Assembly: GCF_000833575.1 (NCBI RefSeq)
Contig: NZ_CP010827.1
Location: 62,001-126,000 of the forward strand
Length of the DNA: 64,000 nt
DNA from: Corynebacterium singulare
GTDB taxonomy: Bacteria; Actinomycetota; Actinomycetes; Mycobacteriales; Mycobacteriaceae
Direction: 5' to 3'
The position numbers and the translations under genes were made by a program. The notes below the pieces were generated by a model, which was given only the letters and a program-made list of their open reading frames with translations, was not told the DNA's origin and searched no databases. Below are positions 2,816-64,000 of the stretch, piece after piece. How positions within the stretch are numbered: position 1 is the stretch's first letter; each line of letters begins with the position of its first letter.

Positions 2816-3880
2816 TTAGCCTGGCCGGGGCAGGTTGTTGCGGGCTTGCTGATAAGCAGCTTGGGTGGTGATTGGTTCTGCCCAGGGCGGGATGTAGTCA
2901 ACCTCGCCGCGCAGGCGGAAGACATAGCCAGCCCCGGTGGGTTTATCCGGGTCATCATCATTAACGCCATTGTGATAGGCACACAACATCGTTAAATTCG
3001 GCGGGTTAGTTTCCCCACCGGCCTTCCACGGCACCAGGTGATGCACCTGGGCAAAATCAGCCGGCTTATTACAACCTTCCCTCGCACACGTGGGATGCTC
3101 CGCACTAGCCATCATGCGTTGCTCAAACCCAGCGAAGCGTTGCATGCGGTGTAGCCATACCGGCCCGATGGTGGGGTGGATTAGGGTGACGTAGCCGATT
3201 TCAGCAAACTTGTAGTTCAAAAACTCAGCCCCGGTCATACGCCCACCATTAGTTAACTCCAGGATGATGTCGTCACCGTCACCGGAGACAATCTTGTCAA
3301 GCTTATCCAAGGTCACCACTACGCTGGTGAGCACCGCAGGCTTTGTTCCACCATGGTTGTTGGTGAAGAAGACCTGTTTGCAAGCCTCTAGCAGGTTGGT
3401 GTGGTTGATGGATTCTAAGGTGCCGTGCATCTCAGTAATCATCAACGCATCACCAGTAATAGTCAGCGAGTGCGGGCCTTGCTTACGGTAGGTCATGCGC
3501 ACCCCAGGTTTTGGCACATGCTTGGGCTTGAGCTCTTTTAAGCGCTTGGTGGCTACTGCTGGGATGTTGTGTGCGTCGGTGCCAGCAAGTCTAAGCCTTA
3601 GGTTCCAGGCATCCAACTGATTCTTGAGTTTCGACGTGTAGGACTCGATAAGGCTTAGCGTGGCCACATCGTGGCCTTGGTCCAGGGCACGCGCACGCGC
3701 GGTGCGTTGCTTACCAGTGAACTTGGTAGCCCCGAAGTAGATGTGGTGCAGGCGTGCTAATTCGGCGGCATCAGCCGGTGCGGCACCGCGTGCGCGTAGG
3801 TGTTGTTCTCCTCCTACCGCCTGCTCCACCAAAGAAATCCCCGAGTTGCGGAAGGAGAAATAGGTCTCTAAATCCCCCAT
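2816..3880 (-). CDS. HNH endonuclease-signature protein (DUF222/13E12-like)
   Basis: A 354-residue protein with the layout of actinobacterial DUF222-HNH (13E12 repeat) proteins: an N-terminal helical region of about 230 residues and a C-terminal HNH nuclease fold with CAREGCNKP, QVHHLVPW (catalytic His pair), NPPNLTMLC and YHNGVND, i.e. two zinc Cys pairs around HH-N-H. Such genes are often multicopy in corynebacteria and mycobacteria, and their cellular role is not settled. ATG 3880 (MGDLETYF) is preferred over the upstream extension to 4012, which would overlap the ROK gene and encode unconserved-looking sequence. Confidence 0.8.
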   Translation of the reverse strand: MGDLETYFSFRNSGISLVEQAVGGEQHLRARGAAPADAAELARLHHIYFGATKFTGKQRTARARALDQGHDVATLSLIESYTSKLKNQLDAWNLRLRLAGTDAHNIPAVATKRLKELKPKHVPKPGVRMTYRKQGPHSLTITGDALMITEMHGTLESINHTNLLEACKQVFFTNNHGGTKPAVLTSVVVTLDKLDKIVSGDGDDIILELTNGGRMTGAEFLNYKFAEIGYVTLIHPTIGPVWLHRMQRFAGFEQRMMASAEHPTCAREGCNKPADFAQVHHLVPWKAGGETNPPNLTMLCAYHNGVNDDDPDKPTGAGYVFRLRGEVDYIPPWAEPITTQAAYQQARNNLPRPG

Positions 3881-3932
3881 GACCCAGAACACTAAACCAC
3901 CACACACCACCCCGCAACCGGAGAGGAAAACT

Positions 3933-5003
3933 TTAGGCAGCCTTGGCCTCGCGGCCCAGCTCAAGCGGCACGCGCAGCAGCGGATCCAAAGCCACAGCAC
4001 GAGTGCACGCACGCACGATCTCTGAAGGCGAAGGAATCATACGCAGTTCCACCGCTTGGTCGGTGTTGTGCCGCACGGCAGAGGCGAAGAGCTTCGGGGC
4101 AGCCGGATCGTCGGAGAATGCGCCTCCTGCGACCACGAGGGTGTCCGGTGCATGCTCAGCCACGAGGGAGGCGGCGATGGTGCCGAGGGAGCGGGCGCGG
4201 TCGTCGAAAAGCGCACGCGCATCTGGGTCCTGCACCGCGTCCGGGAGGGACTCTGCGCCTGCCGCGGTGAGCACGGCCTGGGTGGCCAGAGAATCCGGGG
4301 CAGTGAGCTCCAGCGGGGCAATCTCATCGCCGACGGTAAGCGCCGCACCTACCGTGTCATCCGCATAGAGCACCATGACAGGCTTTTCCGCGCCCATCTC
4401 CGTGGACTGCGTCTCCGAGCCCAGGATGGCGGGGATGACGGAGGAGACCACCACCGGCACGCCGAACTGGTACTGCACGCGGCTTGTAATGTCTATGCTG
4501 TCCCAACCCAGGTTGTGGGCGGTGACGTGGCCAGACTCGTCGACGCTACCGGACGTGGTCACCCCGACCGACACGAGCCGGCGGTCCACGCCAGTCATCA
4601 GACGGTTCATGCCTGCGATGATGTGCTCGATGATGTCGCCCTCGCTGAGGCGGGAAACCGGGGTCGCCACGTCCTCCTCGCAGAGCGTGCGGCCTTTGGT
4701 GTCGAAGAAAGCGATGCGCGTAAATGCCGTGCCCACCGCGATGCCGCCCAGCATCCAGTCATTATCCGCAACCTCCAGCGGAACGGTCGGGCGCCCACGC
4801 CCCCGGGACTGAGTGAGGTCAGTGCGTTCACGGATCAACCCAGCGCCCAGCAGCGCAGCGGTGGCGCGCGTAATCGTGGGTTGGGAGAGCCCAGTGGCTT
4901 CCACCAGCTCGCTGCGGGTGACGACAGGATTGAGTCGAATGATGTGGAGGCACTTCGCCGCAGGGGTACGGGGGCGGGTGAACACGGGGCCGGACTTAAT
5001 CAT
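3933..5003 (-). CDS. ROK-family transcriptional regulator
   Basis: A 356-residue DNA-binding regulator. Residues about 15-65 form a winged helix (TRSELVEATGLSQPTITRATAALLGAGLI) followed by GRGRPTVPLEV, and the rest is a ROK sugar-kinase-like domain (GGIAVG near residue 85). The usual ROK zinc cluster CxCGxxGC is absent, so it probably senses a ligand without kinase activity. ATG 5003 is chosen over ATG 5033 because TATACT (5016-5011 on this strand) lies exactly 7 bases before it, implying a leaderless mRNA, and because the earlier ATG falls inside an operator-like repeat. Divergent from the LOG gene, with which it probably shares control. Confidence 0.85.
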   Translation of the reverse strand: MIKSGPVFTRPRTPAAKCLHIIRLNPVVTRSELVEATGLSQPTITRATAALLGAGLIRERTDLTQSRGRGRPTVPLEVADNDWMLGGIAVGTAFTRIAFFDTKGRTLCEEDVATPVSRLSEGDIIEHIIAGMNRLMTGVDRRLVSVGVTTSGSVDESGHVTAHNLGWDSIDITSRVQYQFGVPVVVSSVIPAILGSETQSTEMGAEKPVMVLYADDTVGAALTVGDEIAPLELTAPDSLATQAVLTAAGAESLPDAVQDPDARALFDDRARSLGTIAASLVAEHAPDTLVVAGGAFSDDPAAPKLFASAVRHNTDQAVELRMIPSPSEIVRACTRAVALDPLLRVPLELGREAKAA

Positions 5004-5024
5004 GGCGTCAAGTATAAATTCAAC

Positions 5025-5073
5025 AGACCGCATTGTCTAATAGAAATTGGGTTCCAGTAGACATCATGGTCTA
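5025..5073. promoter_or_regulatory. Two AGAC-N6-GTCT inverted repeats between ROK and LOG genes
   Basis: AGAC-cgcatt-GTCT at 5025-5038 and TAGAC-atcatg-GTCTA at 5058-5073 have the same arms and spacer and are 34 bp apart centre to centre, about three helical turns. The first covers the likely -35 region of the ROK promoter (-10 TATACT at 5016-5011). The second covers the likely -35 region of the LOG promoter (-10 TAAGGT at 5089-5094). Inferred autoregulatory operators of the ROK protein. Confidence 0.65.
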
Positions 5074-59491: not shown

Positions 59492-61126
59492 GTGACTGAT
59501 TACCGGGCCGTGATGGACCTTGTCTTACAAGGCTGGTCCGTCCGTCAAATCTGCTCGACTGTGCGTTGCTCACATACCACAGTCCAAAAGGCCCGCCAGA
59601 CAATGGCGGCACACCAGATCACAACCCATGAACAACTCGCCGGCATCACCGACGAAGAAATGGCCACATGGTTTGTTGATGGTCGAAGTCTTGCCCAAGG
59701 AGACTTCGTGCCCATCGACTTCGACGCGGTGGCCAAAGCACGTACCGGCCGAAACAAAGTCACTCTCCAAGTCTTGTGGGGCCGCTACACCACCCAACCT
59801 GCCCGTCCGTCTCAGCGTTACTACAGCTACGAGCGGTTCCGCCAGCTTGTCGCCGAACACGTTGATGCCACAGGACTTACCGCACGCATTACGCATATCC
59901 CGGCACACACTATGCAAGTCGACTGGGCCGGTACCACAATGCGGCTGTTTGACCCGATTGATGCCCGGGGTGCAAAAGTCAGTATTTTCGTGGCGTCACT
60001 GCCGTATTCCGGAATGTTGTTTGCCTGTGCTTGCCCGAACCAGCGGCAAGCAGCATGGCTGTGGGCGCATATCCAAGCGTTTGAATACTTCGGTGGCGTC
60101 GCTGAAGTCATTGTGCCTGATAATGCTTCGACAGCGTCACACGCAATCGGTGCTGCTGACCGCAACCGGCAGGTTAATTCCACCTACGAGGAATTCCTCG
60201 AGCATTACAACACTGCCGCGCTGCCTGCTCGCGCTCGGCGTCCGAAGGACAAGGCGAACGTGGAAGCGGCAGTCAAGATCATCACCCAAAAAGTCATCCA
60301 TACCCTCCACGGGCATCAATGCGTTGGGCTCGATGAACTCAATGCACGCATCCGCAGCCTAGTTGACGGTATCAATGACGCGGTACCCTTTCGTGGCACC
60401 TGCACCAGCAGAAGAATGCTCTTTAATGAGTTTGAACGTGATGTGCTTGGCCAACTTCCCGCATCACCGTGGCAGCATACCGAATGGAAACGCGCGAAAG
60501 TCGCCCCCAACTTCCACATCACCGTCAATACTGCTCACTATTCGGTGCCCTACCAGCTCGTCGGCCGCACTGTCGATGTACGCATCACCGGCAACGAAGT
60601 AACCGTCTTTGACGCTGGGCAGCGTGTTGCCACCCACCAGCTAGCCCAAGCCCGGGGGATCTATGTCACTGACGTGGATCATATTCCTGCCACCATGGCT
60701 GATACCACAGGACTGTGGACCAGTGACTACTTCTACCGTGAAGCAGCCAAGATCGGGCCAGCGACCCAGAAAGTCATCGCAGAACTCATCAGCGCAAAGG
60801 CAATCCCTGCCCAGGCATATCAGTCGTGTCGAAACGTACTAAATATGGGCAAGCACGCCAACAAGGCGATTTTGGAACAAGCCTGTGCCCGCCTGATCGC
60901 ACCTGATGGCGCAAGGAGGGCCGTGTCGTATACCGCGGTGAAAAACATGATGGCTGCGGTACGCAAAGACCAATCCACCCGCCCGACAGGCCATGATCTT
61001 CTGCCAACAACACCGCCTGAAACACCACCAGCAGTACACGCACGTGATACCCGCGGCGCGTATCTGGGTGGGTCTGCTCAGTTCAGCATGGAAAACCTTA
61101 GGAAGAAAGGACCTTCGCAGTCATGA
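59492..61126 (+). CDS. istA: IS21-family transposase IstA
   Basis: A 544-residue DDE transposase. N-terminal helix-turn-helix WSVRQICSTVRCSHTTVQKARQ (about residues 15-36); catalytic acids in MQVDWAGTTMRLFD (about 148), VIVPDNASTASH (about 210) and RRPKDKANVEAAVKII (Glu about 255). The C-terminal part is a beta-rich DNA-binding region. The start is a GTG with GAGGAG upstream. Its stop overlaps the start of istB by 4 bases (ATGA). Works with IstB to insert the element. Confidence 0.95.
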   Translation: MTDYRAVMDLVLQGWSVRQICSTVRCSHTTVQKARQTMAAHQITTHEQLAGITDEEMATWFVDGRSLAQGDFVPIDFDAVAKARTGRNKVTLQVLWGRYTTQPARPSQRYYSYERFRQLVAEHVDATGLTARITHIPAHTMQVDWAGTTMRLFDPIDARGAKVSIFVASLPYSGMLFACACPNQRQAAWLWAHIQAFEYFGGVAEVIVPDNASTASHAIGAADRNRQVNSTYEEFLEHYNTAALPARARRPKDKANVEAAVKIITQKVIHTLHGHQCVGLDELNARIRSLVDGINDAVPFRGTCTSRRMLFNEFERDVLGQLPASPWQHTEWKRAKVAPNFHITVNTAHYSVPYQLVGRTVDVRITGNEVTVFDAGQRVATHQLAQARGIYVTDVDHIPATMADTTGLWTSDYFYREAAKIGPATQKVIAELISAKAIPAQAYQSCRNVLNMGKHANKAILEQACARLIAPDGARRAVSYTAVKNMMAAVRKDQSTRPTGHDLLPTTPPETPPAVHARDTRGAYLGGSAQFSMENLRKKGPSQS

Positions 61127-61899
61127 CACAGCCACAACCAGCATCGGCATCAGCACGCTTTCTAGATGAATCGGTCCTGCCGGTCTTTACCGATCTGCGA
61201 ATGACGGCCTTCGGCCGAACCGTGATTGATATTGCCGCAGATCCCGTCTTCGACTCGTGGAGCTTTTCTGACAAGGTGCTCCACGCACTCGATAAAGAAG
61301 TCGCGGCCAAGCGTGAGAGACGAGTCAACAAACTACTCAAAGCATCCCGATCGCCAAATCTTGATGCATGTATCGAAGACATCACCTACGCACCCGGCCG
61401 CAACCTCAACAAAGAGCAAATCACCAGACTCGCTCACTGCCAATGGTGTCAAAAAGCGCAAAGCATTGTCATCCTCGGCAAATCATCCGTCGGCAAAACC
61501 TACCTGGCCCAAGCACTGCTAACCGCCGCGTGCAGAAACGACTACTCCGCCCGCTTCTTCCGCACAGACACACTAGCCAACCAGCTGATGGTGCTACGCC
61601 ATAATGACGCAGCACGCATGGAATTTCTTCAAGACCTACACCTGGCAGACGTACTCGTTCTTGACGACTTCCTAACAACCCCGATTGATGCAGCCACAGC
61701 ACACCAGCTACTCAATATTCTTGCGGAACGTGAACACCGGGGATCAACGATCGTGACCTCACAGTTCACGCCCGACGAGTGGTACAAATCCATCCCGGAT
61801 GCTGTCATCGCCGAGTCGATACTGAATCGGCTTGTCGTTGGCGCTGAGATCATCACACTGGAAGGACCCAACATGCGCCTAGAAGGCAACGCAGAGTAG
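61123..61899 (+). CDS. istB: IS21-family helper ATPase IstB
   Basis: A 258-residue AAA+ ATPase related to DnaC. Walker A is ILGKSSVGKTYLAQAL (about residue 118), Walker B is DVLVLDDFLTTP (about 180), and the sensor I region is STIVTSQFTPDEWYK. The N-terminal region is helical. IstB selects target DNA and stimulates IstA. Starts in the ATGA overlap with istA. The gene ends about 90 bp before the right end of the element. Confidence 0.95.
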   Translation: MTQPQPASASARFLDESVLPVFTDLRMTAFGRTVIDIAADPVFDSWSFSDKVLHALDKEVAAKRERRVNKLLKASRSPNLDACIEDITYAPGRNLNKEQITRLAHCQWCQKAQSIVILGKSSVGKTYLAQALLTAACRNDYSARFFRTDTLANQLMVLRHNDAARMEFLQDLHLADVLVLDDFLTTPIDAATAHQLLNILAEREHRGSTIVTSQFTPDEWYKSIPDAVIAESILNRLVVGAEIITLEGPNMRLEGNAE

Positions 61900-62128
61900 T
61901 TGCTCATAAGCAACGCCCGGGTGTTACTCAATACTCACCCGGGCGTTACTGCTTGCTCACCACGGCGTTACTAAATACGTGGTCCTAACAATATGAGGCC
62001 AACGTATTGGGTATCCCTCTGGGCTGCAAAAGTGGGAACGGCTAAGCCCCATATGTCTGAGGAGCGATGAGCCTCCTGGTCGAAATCGCACGACCGATTC
62101 CAGTTTTGTATACAAACCCGTTCTGTAT

Positions 62129-62148
62129 CCAAAAGTTTTTGGTAGGCT
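62129..62148 (+). promoter_or_regulatory. Probable promoter region of the peptide-ThiF-MFS operon
   Basis: A CCAAAA-gt-TTTTGG inverted repeat (62129-62142) is followed at once by TAGGCT (62143-62148), a common corynebacterial -10 box, giving a transcript start near 62155 and a leader of about 33 nt before the peptide gene. The repeat covers the -35 side, as an operator might. Inference only. Confidence 0.45.
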
Positions 62149-62187
62149 AGGCGGTTGTAACAGTTATTTATCCTGAAGGGAGTGAAA

Positions 62188-62265
62188 ATGGAAGGCCTGA
62201 CTTTCGAAAACTTGAAAGCTGAAGATTTCGTATTGTTATGCGGCGGTTGCTGTACCGACGGATAA
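62188..62265 (+). CDS. 25-residue putative RiPP precursor peptide
   Basis: ATG 62188 is preceded by GAAGGGAG at 7 bases, an excellent ribosome site. The product has an acidic, Leu/Phe-containing leader-like part (LTFENLKAEDFVLL) and a Cys/Gly-rich tail, CGGCCTDG, ending in glycine directly before TAA. It lies 18 bp before a ThiF-like gene with a peptide-recognition-like domain. This is the layout of a ribosomally made, modified peptide. The gene is too short for usual gene finders. No known precursor family is recognised. Confidence 0.75.
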   Translation: MEGLTFENLKAEDFVLLCGGCCTDG

Positions 62266-62283
62266 TCCCAGAAAGAGTTGAGT

Positions 62284-63366
62284 ATGTATCGTCTGAAATA
62301 CGCTCATAGGCCACTCGCTGTTGGTAAGGACTCCTTGATCATTGGCGGAGTTTCCTACGGGAGCTCTAGGAAGGTAAGGGATTCCGATGGGAGAATCAAG
62401 GCGATCTTAACTCGGTTAGATGGAACTAGGACCCTTGAGCAGATCTATTTCGAGCTTGAGGGGTCCTTTCCGTCGCTAAGCTATCAATTTGTCGAGGAGC
62501 TCGTTTCCGCACTTGCAGACTTTGGATTTCTTGAAGAGTCGGAGTATCCCTCCGAACTTGATACTAGGTTCGAACTATGGTCTAGAGCGCAAAACCTGTA
62601 TCAAGGGATGGATAACCAGTTGCGAGAGCATCCATGGTATGTGCAGGAGAAATTATCAAATAGCGCAGCTGCCATAGTAGGGCTTGGGGGAGTCGGGTCA
62701 GAAGTGGCCGTTCTTCTTGCCCGAGCTGGCATTGGAAAGCTCGTCCTTATTGACCCAGATACAGTTGAGCCGACAAATATTGTTCGCCAGCATTTCAAAT
62801 TTACCGATATTGGAGATGCAAAGAGTAAGGCGTTAGCTAGTCAAATAGCGGAAATTGGACTTGAGACAGAGATAGACTGCTTGCAGAAAAGCTTATGTAC
62901 AACGAGTGACTTCGAGCGTACGCTGAATTCGGTAGATACTTTCGCACTGTCAGCGGACTACCCTGAGAGAATAAGATTCACGGCGAATGACTTTGCATTA
63001 CGTCATGAAATGCCGTGGGCGCACTGCGGGTACCAAGGTCCCGAGATTATCCTAGGTATTCATGATAGCTGTGGTGCCTGTTTTAGATGCATAAAAGACT
63101 ATCAGACGATCGAGCGTGCCGACCGTGATCTGCACATCCGAGAGTACTCACGTCCTCTAAGGCAAGCGGGTAATTCCGTTTCTTCCTCAATTTCAGCAGC
63201 CTTTCTCGCGCACGGAATAATTAGTCTACTCACGGGAGTTCCTTGTATAAAAACAAACGTAGAGTATTGGTTTTCTATGCAATCAATGACGATAAACAAA
63301 GTTGAAGTACCTAACTTCGAAACTTGCGCCCATAAAGGAGTTGGTGTTGTCGCTTTGGAAAAATAG
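62284..63366 (+). CDS. ThiF/MccB-like E1 adenylating enzyme with N-terminal peptide-binding-like domain
   Basis: A 360-residue protein. Residues about 1-85 (PLAVGKDSLIIGG... LEQIYFELEGSFPS... LVSALADFGFLEE) resemble a PqqD/RRE-type recognition domain. Residues 125-345 are ThiF-like: GLGGVGS (133-139), Asp157, NIVRQ with Arg168, GDAKSK (177-182) and a catalytic-Asp region ADYPERIRFTAND (Asp225). Zinc-type Cys are in CGACFRC (263-269), with a second partial cluster TCAHKG (Cys348, His350). MccB in microcin C and PaaA in pantocin have this design and activate carboxyl groups of short peptides with ATP. ATG 62284 has AGAAAGAG upstream. AT-rich, unlike the core genome. Confidence 0.85.
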   Translation: MYRLKYAHRPLAVGKDSLIIGGVSYGSSRKVRDSDGRIKAILTRLDGTRTLEQIYFELEGSFPSLSYQFVEELVSALADFGFLEESEYPSELDTRFELWSRAQNLYQGMDNQLREHPWYVQEKLSNSAAAIVGLGGVGSEVAVLLARAGIGKLVLIDPDTVEPTNIVRQHFKFTDIGDAKSKALASQIAEIGLETEIDCLQKSLCTTSDFERTLNSVDTFALSADYPERIRFTANDFALRHEMPWAHCGYQGPEIILGIHDSCGACFRCIKDYQTIERADRDLHIREYSRPLRQAGNSVSSSISAAFLAHGIISLLTGVPCIKTNVEYWFSMQSMTINKVEVPNFETCAHKGVGVVALEK

Positions 63367-64000
63367 AGACTACAAATTGCTAATGTCGGGGCAAACAGTA
63401 AATGTAGTCGGTAATCAAATTACTACTTTCGCCCTATTTCTTGTAGTTCTTAATGTTACCAACTCTCCATCCGCTGCAAGTTTTTCGTCAGGATTATTTG
63501 TCTTAAGTATGGTTGTTTTGGGGCTGCCAATCGGTCGCCTAGTGGACAGATATTCAAGATTAGTAATTCTTAAAATTTCCGCCACACTTGGCGTCGTTGG
63601 TTCCCTGTTATGCGTCTTTGCGGCCAATGGACATTATCCGATATCTCTTTTTGCAGTTTCAGCTTTCTTGCTAGGGGGTATCTCCTCGGCTTTTGGTACG
63701 GCAGAACGCGCATTTCTTAAAGAACTAATCCCCCCGAGTTTGCTAGCAAAAGCCATGGCTGTTAATCAAGGTCGATACTCGATCGGAACCTTACTTGGGC
63801 CACCAATTGCCGGTCTGCTTATCTCGCATTCGGCGCAAGCTCCTTTTTGGGTTGATGCAGCTTCATTCTGCTGGGTTCTAGCTTGCCTTTTGCTTATTCG
63901 TTTCCGGTCAAGCGAAACAGACTCTTCGAATACCCCCAGCGAAACACCTCCGCTACGCCCAGCATGGGATTGGCTACGTGGTCAAAAGCAGCTCTTCTCC
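63347..64000 (+). CDS. MFS transporter, probable peptide exporter (3' end outside window)
   Basis: The frame is open to the right edge (218 codons). It begins MSLWKNRDYKLLMSGQTVNVVGN when read from TTG 63347, matching the usual 'LWxNrdfxlLxxgqtvsxlG' start of MFS exporters; later come GRLVDRYSR (motif A-like) and FGTAERAFLKELIPP with NQGRYSIGTLLGPPIAG. About six helices are visible. AAAGGAG at 63334-63340, inside the ThiF gene, supports TTG 63347 (or GTG 63344), giving a 20-bp overlap and translational coupling. MccC, the microcin C exporter, is also an MFS protein. Confidence 0.85.
   Translation, partial: MSLWKNRDYKLLMSGQTVNVVGNQITTFALFLVVLNVTNSPSAASFSSGLFVLSMVVLGLPIGRLVDRYSRLVILKISATLGVVGSLLCVFAANGHYPISLFAVSAFLLGGISSAFGTAERAFLKELIPPSLLAKAMAVNQGRYSIGTLLGPPIAGLLISHSAQAPFWVDAASFCWVLACLLLIRFRSSETDSSNTPSETPPLRPAWDWLRGQKQLFS

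Follow-up and report, generated by a model that had tools for sequence, protein, structure and literature searches.

A three-gene operon headed by a short peptide gene

Within a 64,000-nucleotide stretch of the Corynebacterium singulare genome (the window; positions 62001-126000 of NZ_CP010827.1, the single contig of a 2.83-Mb genome), we analyzed a compact operon of three plus-strand genes. These encode a 25-residue peptide, an adenylating enzyme that joins a ribosomally synthesized and post-translationally modified peptide (RiPP) recognition element (RRE) to a ThiF (E1-like) domain, and a major facilitator superfamily (MFS) transporter. Its features, in the window coordinates used throughout, are as follows.

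62175..62182, + strand: ribosome-binding site GAAGGGAG of the precursor gene, read from the sequence
62188..62265, + strand: precursor peptide gene, 25 aa, MEGLTFENLKAEDFVLLCGGCCTDG (ATG at 62188, stop at 62263-62265)
62239..62262, + strand: codons of the proposed ring C18-G-G-C-C-T-D-G25, a putative core placed by the pattern of the MIEF-type peptides described below
62284..63366, + strand: RRE-ThiF (E1-like) adenylating enzyme, 360 aa (Pfam ThiF, 1e-31)
62284..62541, + strand: N-terminal RRE-like domain, residues 1-86 (predicted model with strands, then three helices; PaaA profile match from profile position 3)
62566..63309, + strand: E1 adenylation domain, residues about 95-342 (alignment and predicted fold)
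63353..64000, + strand, continuing past the window: MFS transporter, 392 aa from TTG 63353 (MFS_1, 2.7e-37 over the whole gene)

The ribosome-binding site GAAGGGAG lies 5 nt ahead of the precursor ATG, and an in-frame GTG at 62182 offers an alternative start that would add the residues MK. The precursor stop is separated by 18 nt from the ATG of the enzyme gene (62284). By our reading, the MFS gene likely begins at TTG 63353, behind AAAGGAG, and from there overlaps the enzyme stop by 14 nt; a longer frame is open from TTG 63302. Its last base is contig position 126531, so that 531 bases of it lie outside the window. G+C content is 0.449 for the peptide gene, 0.468 for the enzyme gene and 0.461 for the MFS part, versus 0.606 for window positions 1-62000. 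A first-pass annotation, made from the sequence alone, had described the 25-codon gene with its strong ribosome site, the 18-nt gap, the overlap with the MFS gene, the recognition-like domain of the enzyme and the AT-rich DNA, all of which we confirm. Its further proposal of a RiPP operon is supported: we consider it very likely that the three genes form a minimal operon, with the peptide as precursor, the RRE-E1 enzyme as its modifier and the MFS protein as exporter.

The enzyme is a predicted RRE-E1 fusion

The best profile match of the enzyme is PaaA-type, RRE included, and its predicted structure shows the MccB/PaaA fold. The match to Pfam PaaA-like_N is sub-threshold (15.2 bits versus a cut-off of 27). 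Five ATP-site residues (N165, R168, Q169, K180 and D225) are invariant across 42 aligned rows. As judged from the alignment and the predicted model, the protein is an RRE fused to an E1/ThiF domain with an intact ATP site. Near the enzyme's C-terminus a Cys pair is broken, and an additional Cys adjoins the first pair.

One reading of such a protein is a sulfur-carrier role, in which sulfur would be loaded onto the Gly tail of the peptide as ThiF and MoeB do with ThiS and MoaD. The ThiF family and the C-terminal Gly are consistent with this, as are Cys248 and Cys263, which are unique to the enzyme among the 42 rows. Against it, the Cys of the CSxAG motif present in two of the genome's own E1-type proteins (L002 and L003) is replaced in the window enzyme, and none of the three operon genes encodes a sulfurtransferase. 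On these grounds the thiocarboxylate, one of the products suggested in the first-pass annotation, is set aside as highly improbable.

A scan with alignment A2 yielded at least 498 relatives among at least 587 matched stretches. Eighty were kept, with upstream open reading frames (ORFs) examined in 53 of them, and further loci were added from whole-genome samples and plasmids. The highest identity listed for any relative is 34%. In overlapping genome samples that include the window's own genome, the enzyme or relatives occurred in 1 of 242 genomes of the genus, 3 of 401 of the family, 30 of 397 of the order, 13 of 394 of the class and 2 of 396 of the phylum. The single-protein scan of viral_contigs returned one pattern match, which is not a relative. 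In a quick tree of 93 proteins (90 distinct), 82 rows, all actinobacterial and including the window enzyme, are split with support 99 from eight others: MccB, proteins of L. plantarum, Moraxella, Salmonella, Exiguobacterium and Macrococcus, and L064 and L065 from the window's own order. Among the starred subsets containing no more than half the rows, none includes the window enzyme.

Two types of small peptide accompany related enzymes

The case for the small gene is stronger because related enzymes also have small ORFs nearby. The comparison revealed two coherent precursor types beside actinobacterial RRE-ThiFs, which we name the MIEF type and the LETT type; both rules were written after examples had been seen. 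One clade, from the Pseudonocardiaceae, comprises 22 rows, some of them near-duplicates such as L043/L080 and L046/L084, and has support 98. In every row a MIEF-type peptide stands directly before the enzyme, 19 of them identified by rule and three (L042, L073 and L103) by eye. Examples are MIEIVMVERTDAVHHVYSHDNG, MIEFIEVHRETTFSSPTQQS and MIEFVEYEQRMTFCSKDSS; versions with Ser and with Cys both occur (HVYSHDNG and HVYCHDNN). Outside the clade the same rule found no match in the other 68 rows, which include the window, and it matched 4 of 1100 triplet shuffles; in the quick tree the window enzyme falls outside this clade. LETT-type peptides share the leader [IV]xIRxL[DE]KxETT. Searching both strands from 1.5 kb upstream of the enzyme to 2.5 kb downstream, we found them in 48 of 90 rows, with no hit in the 90 when letters were reversed or in any of three triplet shuffles, and they were present in 15 of 19 further loci.

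The C-termini of these peptides are informative. The 20 distinct MIEF-type peptides end in Ser (nine), Gly (five), Ala (four) or Asn (two), and the 50 LETT-type peptides in Gly (16), Ala (10), Thr (eight), Asn (seven), Ser (seven), Cys (one) or Asp (one). Altogether, the last residue is G, A, S, T, N or C in 69 of the 70 distinct peptides, a pattern that Gly25 of the window peptide fits. Because a small last residue is near-universal despite very different cores, the group adenylated by the window enzyme is probably the C-terminal carboxylate. All 20 MIEF-type peptides also carry Cys or Ser 5-9 residues from the end, preceded in 17 by F, Y, L, V, I, M or W.

The LETT-type loci appear to represent an unnamed, RiPP-like actinobacterial system with a 6-15-residue core, a small C-terminus and an RRE-ThiF; they lie among L036-L039, L048-L054, L057, L060-L063, L066-L070, L072-L121 and L158-L176. 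Five LETT-type precursors tested matched no curated model, and our literature search found nothing on the system. Directly after the RRE-ThiF, 37 of 91 loci (counting duplicates) have a frame of 360-520 aa with an HExxH motif; the one such frame tested matched Peptidase_M50 just above cut-off. L086 (Nonomuraea sp. SBT364), sister to the MIEF clade, has three tandem precursor genes 84-433 nt before ThiF, whose peptides, such as MQIIEIRELDRVETTQACPANNPGCGAG, share a common leader and differ in their Cys-containing cores. These peptides may link the MIEF and LETT types.

Many Pseudonocardiaceae peptide-ThiF pairs are followed by a convergent gene of 490-950 codons (L044, L046, L053, L055, L058, L071, L073, L077, L088, L094, L098 and L103). 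The six that we read look like NB-ARC/TPR proteins, the others being assigned by size and place only. The scanned gene of L088 encodes NB-ARC and TPR regions, and partly matches, below cut-off, AfsR and the TPR proteins of other RiPP systems (HaaT, FxSxx). In L041, the corresponding position is occupied by an XRE/DUF5753 regulator. Pairs with such genes may be peptide-signal or regulated RiPP cassettes.

A candidate route to a C-terminal thiolactone

We propose, tentatively, that the 25-residue precursor is held at its N-terminal portion by the RRE of the enzyme, and that the adenylation domain would consume ATP-Mg and convert the C-terminal Gly25 into a peptidyl-AMP. The thiol of an internal Cys would then attack and AMP would leave, so that a macrothiolactone closes at the C-terminus and one water is lost overall. 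The precursor has three Cys near its C-terminus (18, 21 and 22), within the tail CGGCCTDG. Cys18 would be the first-choice nucleophile, closing the eight-residue ring CGGCCTDG; Cys21 would give a five-residue and Cys22 a four-residue ring. We prefer Cys18 because of the register of the MIEF-type peptides, in which a hydrophobic residue is followed by Cys or Ser, and Cys18 follows Leu-Leu. A host protease would cut off the leader, and the MFS protein would export the product and protect the cell. The activation site, leader removal, export and biological role are what we infer from the genes and their relatives.

The product is probably a small ring-shaped peptide. That it is a thiolactone is a guarded assignment, in which nucleophile and ring size follow from the reasoning above, and the full sequence of Gly25 adenylation, Cys attack and export of a macrothiolactone deserves the same caution. 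Activation of the C-terminal Gly with attack by a Cys, as raised in the first-pass annotation, is nonetheless the likeliest single chemistry. Judging from published work on ThiF RiPPs, IndF, MccB thioesters and RREs (PMC12250964, PMC12150305, PMC13255007, PMC12710340, PMC7470986), a Gly-Cys thiolactone would be chemically ordinary for the E1 class. Our literature search found no natural Gly-Cys thiolactone made by an E1 enzyme.

The carboxylate of the Asp24 (or another) side chain might be activated instead within the same operon, with Cys as nucleophile; the product would be a thiolactone through the side chain, or else Asp24-Gly25 would become an aspartimide. GrcB, described in PMC12250964 as joining an internal Glu side chain to a C-terminal Cys, provides a precedent, and Asp or Glu occurs in the last nine residues of 16 of 20 MIEF-type peptides and in 33 of 50 LETT-type cores. 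We consider side-chain activation unlikely: 4 of 20 MIEF-type and 17 of 50 LETT-type peptides are without Asp or Glu there, and a small C-terminal residue is found in 69 of 70.

A heterocycle had also been entertained in the first-pass annotation, which saw no YcaO protein in the window. We extended this search to the whole genome and obtained no YcaO match (a control search was positive in 5 of 14 genomes). The heterocycle is not supported for this reason, and membership in the azole RiPPs (ocin-ThiF/YcaO) is rejected.

Evidence that weighs against the proposed route

Several observations weigh against the proposed route. One is the scarcity of thiols in the relatives' peptides. Cys occurs in the last nine residues of 12 of 20 MIEF-type peptides and in the core of 13 of 50 LETT-type peptides, hence in the core region of just 25 of 70, and 6 of 50 LETT-type cores contain no Cys, Ser or Thr at all. 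By sequence comparison, the relatives' peptides thus speak more for activation of the C-terminus than for a thiol as the attacking group. The 45 of 70 peptides without a core-region Cys are consistent with an alternative in which a backbone amide, or some nucleophile other than Cys, attacks the activated C-terminal Gly, giving an imide (enterofaecin-like), an amide or a nucleotide adduct (microcin C-like). The published descriptions include such outcomes: EnfB makes a macrocyclic imide or amide from an activated C-terminus (PMC12250964), and the product of IndF is an indolylamide (PMC12150305). However, the window peptide has no Trp, it lacks the C-terminal Asn through whose side chain the microcin C succinimide forms, and three Cys near its C-terminus would be the better nucleophiles. 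We therefore hold attack by a group other than a thiol to be rather unlikely.

The enzyme itself is divergent. Cys248, Ser262, Cys263 and Phe345 differ from all 41 aligned relatives, and its branch in the quick tree is long (3.29) and adjoins another long branch, leaving its placement unsure. Because of these departures and the long branch, its chemistry may differ. The genome_contigs search, which rests on exact 8-residue stretches, returned 16 pattern matches and no close relative, and the other 241 genomes of the genus contain none.

The peptide likewise stands apart. No homologue was found, the plasmid peptide search giving one chance-level match (E 5). In viral_contigs the tail CGGCCTDG had one match, inside a longer frame (three frames of its strand) with no ThiF relative nearby. 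Neither the MIEF nor the LETT rule matches the peptide; a likeness of its leader to either type, suggestive by eye, was reached by a fraction of 0.13 of 5000 shuffles for each and is not significant. Seven peptides (six of relatives and the window's own) matched no curated model in Pfam-A or NCBIfam and gave one chance-level Pfam match. The first-pass annotation had tied its proposal to small ORFs upstream of homologous enzymes and to a conserved tail. The outcome is mixed: small ORFs do occur near related enzymes, but the tail of the window peptide, whose conservation is the key test, was conserved in no locus found.

The rest of the operon adds two further points. None of the three genes encodes a protease, and the host would therefore have to remove the leader. 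Adjacency of ThiF and MFS genes is rare among the relatives. With five MFS queries, which can miss other MFS proteins, we searched 140 loci (L036 onward) that have a ThiF-type match, counting repeated genes and plain ThiF/MoeB-type matches and leaving out the window's own locus. Only L065, L151, L155 and L156 have an MFS gene 200 bases or less from ThiF. Three of these four themselves supplied MFS queries, which leaves L065, where an open frame of 426 codons begins 23 nt past ThiF, as the sole independent case.

These findings bear on whether the small ORF is a substrate gene at all. It may be spurious or no substrate, with the enzyme acting on another peptide or persisting as a relic on a mobile island. 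We made 2000 dinucleotide shuffles of the 200 nt upstream of the enzyme and looked for ORFs of 20-45 codons with a ribosome site that end within 60 nt of the enzyme. A comparable ATG-initiated ORF arose in 58, and in 166 with GTG and TTG starts counted, so that the ORF by itself appears only modestly beyond chance. The missing peptide homologue, the single positive genome among 242 of the genus and the failure of both peptide rules point the same way. Against this reading stand the ribosome site, the 18-nt spacing, the matching low G+C, the intact enzyme and MFS genes and the small peptides near related enzymes. We regard a spurious ORF or a relic as quite improbable.

The operon lies on a putative mobile island

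The operon sits in an AT-rich island bracketed by insertion sequence (IS) genes.

59492..61126, + strand: istA, IS21-type transposase, left flank of the island
61123..61899, + strand: istB, IS21 helper, left flank of the island
L005 8061-9286, - strand: IS3-type two-gene transposase, right of the operon

The genes around the peptide-enzyme pair are thus those of IS21, the MFS gene and those of IS3, the last lying past the end of the MFS gene on the strand opposite to the operon. Low G+C, the flanking IS genes and absence from the other genomes of the genus suggest that the three-gene set is a horizontally acquired mobile island. The 61950-64000 segment has no DNA similarity to plasmids, and a promoter scan found nothing on the plus strand, its one promoter-like site being below the shuffle mean of 3.9.

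Comparison with known systems

At least five RRE-ThiF reactions have been characterized (microcin C, pantocin, GrcB, EnfB and IndF; PMC12150305, PMC12250964), and the text of PMC12150305 counts 27,400 RRE-ThiF candidates in RefSeq. The novelty suggested in the first-pass annotation is weakened accordingly, as such pathways are already described. By gene content, a short precursor gene beside the enzyme plus an exporter, the window operon fits these pathways, with the peptide as putative substrate. It is likely a RiPP operon and a new-looking variant within this recently recognized group. Of the two peptide types described above, the LETT type is excluded by the absence of IxIRxL[DE]KxETT from the locus and a leader likeness within that of shuffles, and the MIEF type because its rule (20-aa class, just before ThiF) fails and the enzyme lies outside the clade.

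The GRC system of Streptococcus (GrcA/GrcB) shares the RRE-ThiF, a short precursor and an ATP-driven thiolactone, shown there and proposed here. GrcA has 39 aa with an internal Glu35 and C-terminal Cys39, and its locus encodes two radical SAM enzymes and a separate RRE, whereas the window peptide has a C-terminal Gly with upstream Cys, and only an MFS gene accompanies the pair. We rejected GRC membership for want of a C-terminal Cys with an internal Glu and of radical SAM genes in the three-gene operon (the genome was not scanned for the latter). Pantocin A (PaaP/PaaA/PaaB/PaaC) also uses an RRE-E1 enzyme, and FENL in the window peptide looks, by eye only, like the initial half of FXXLXXRI, which PMC12250964 gives as the motif for recognition of PaaP. 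It differs in its Glu-Glu core, its 2OG-Fe oxygenase and its EamA-family transporter, where the window has MFS; the window peptide has no EE and the genes around the pair include neither a 2OG-Fe(II) oxygenase nor EamA, and we rejected membership in this system too. The indolylamide (IndA/IndF) and enterofaecin (EnfA/EnfB) systems combine an RRE-ThiF and a small precursor with activation of the C-terminal carboxylate, which we propose for the window. They differ in their C-termini (NWYFI and WWIVI), Trp-containing cores and lack of Cys chemistry.

Microcin C (MccA/MccB/MccC) resembles the window in gene order and enzyme fold, and to this extent the microcin C-like label of the first-pass annotation stands. 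The label fails elsewhere: MccA has 7 aa and ends in Asn in place of Gly25, and the window MFS is not recognizably MccC, BLASTP giving no significant similarity (best E 0.45, to the MccC of L155) although both are MFS proteins. Despite the MccB fold, the window enzyme groups in the quick tree with the RRE-ThiFs of actinobacteria and not with MccB (support 99, unsure given long branches). A plasmid locus of L. plantarum (L151, NZ_CP028335.1; to our knowledge uncharacterized) shows the same three-part order, with two near-identical 19-aa peptides, M[EK]KVSEVKVLAHEEKNGSC, ending in NGSC before ThiF and MFS (3650-5062). It differs in the C-terminal Cys and in its enzyme, about 25% identical and on the MccB side of the tree.

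If the proposal is true, the operon would provide a one-enzyme route to C-terminal thiolactones, starting from a short precursor that is rich in Cys and ends in Gly, and would allow nucleophile choice by E1 enzymes to be tested directly. By analogy, such an enzyme might be the natural counterpart, which we suggest with real doubt, of an engineered MccB/Gly reaction, opposite in sense to GrcB; as PMC13255007 describes, MccA-N7G is still adenylated by MccB and captured by added thiols to give thioesters. It is conceivable, if doubtful, that in a mobile three-gene cassette with its exporter an E1-like enzyme alone closes an autoinducer-type Gly-Cys macrothiolactone. Staphylococcal autoinducing peptides, which PMC12250964 mentions, contain a thiolactone between Cys and the C-terminal carboxylate, made through AgrB and not by an E1 enzyme. 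Their ring is of the type proposed for the window peptide; the maker differs.
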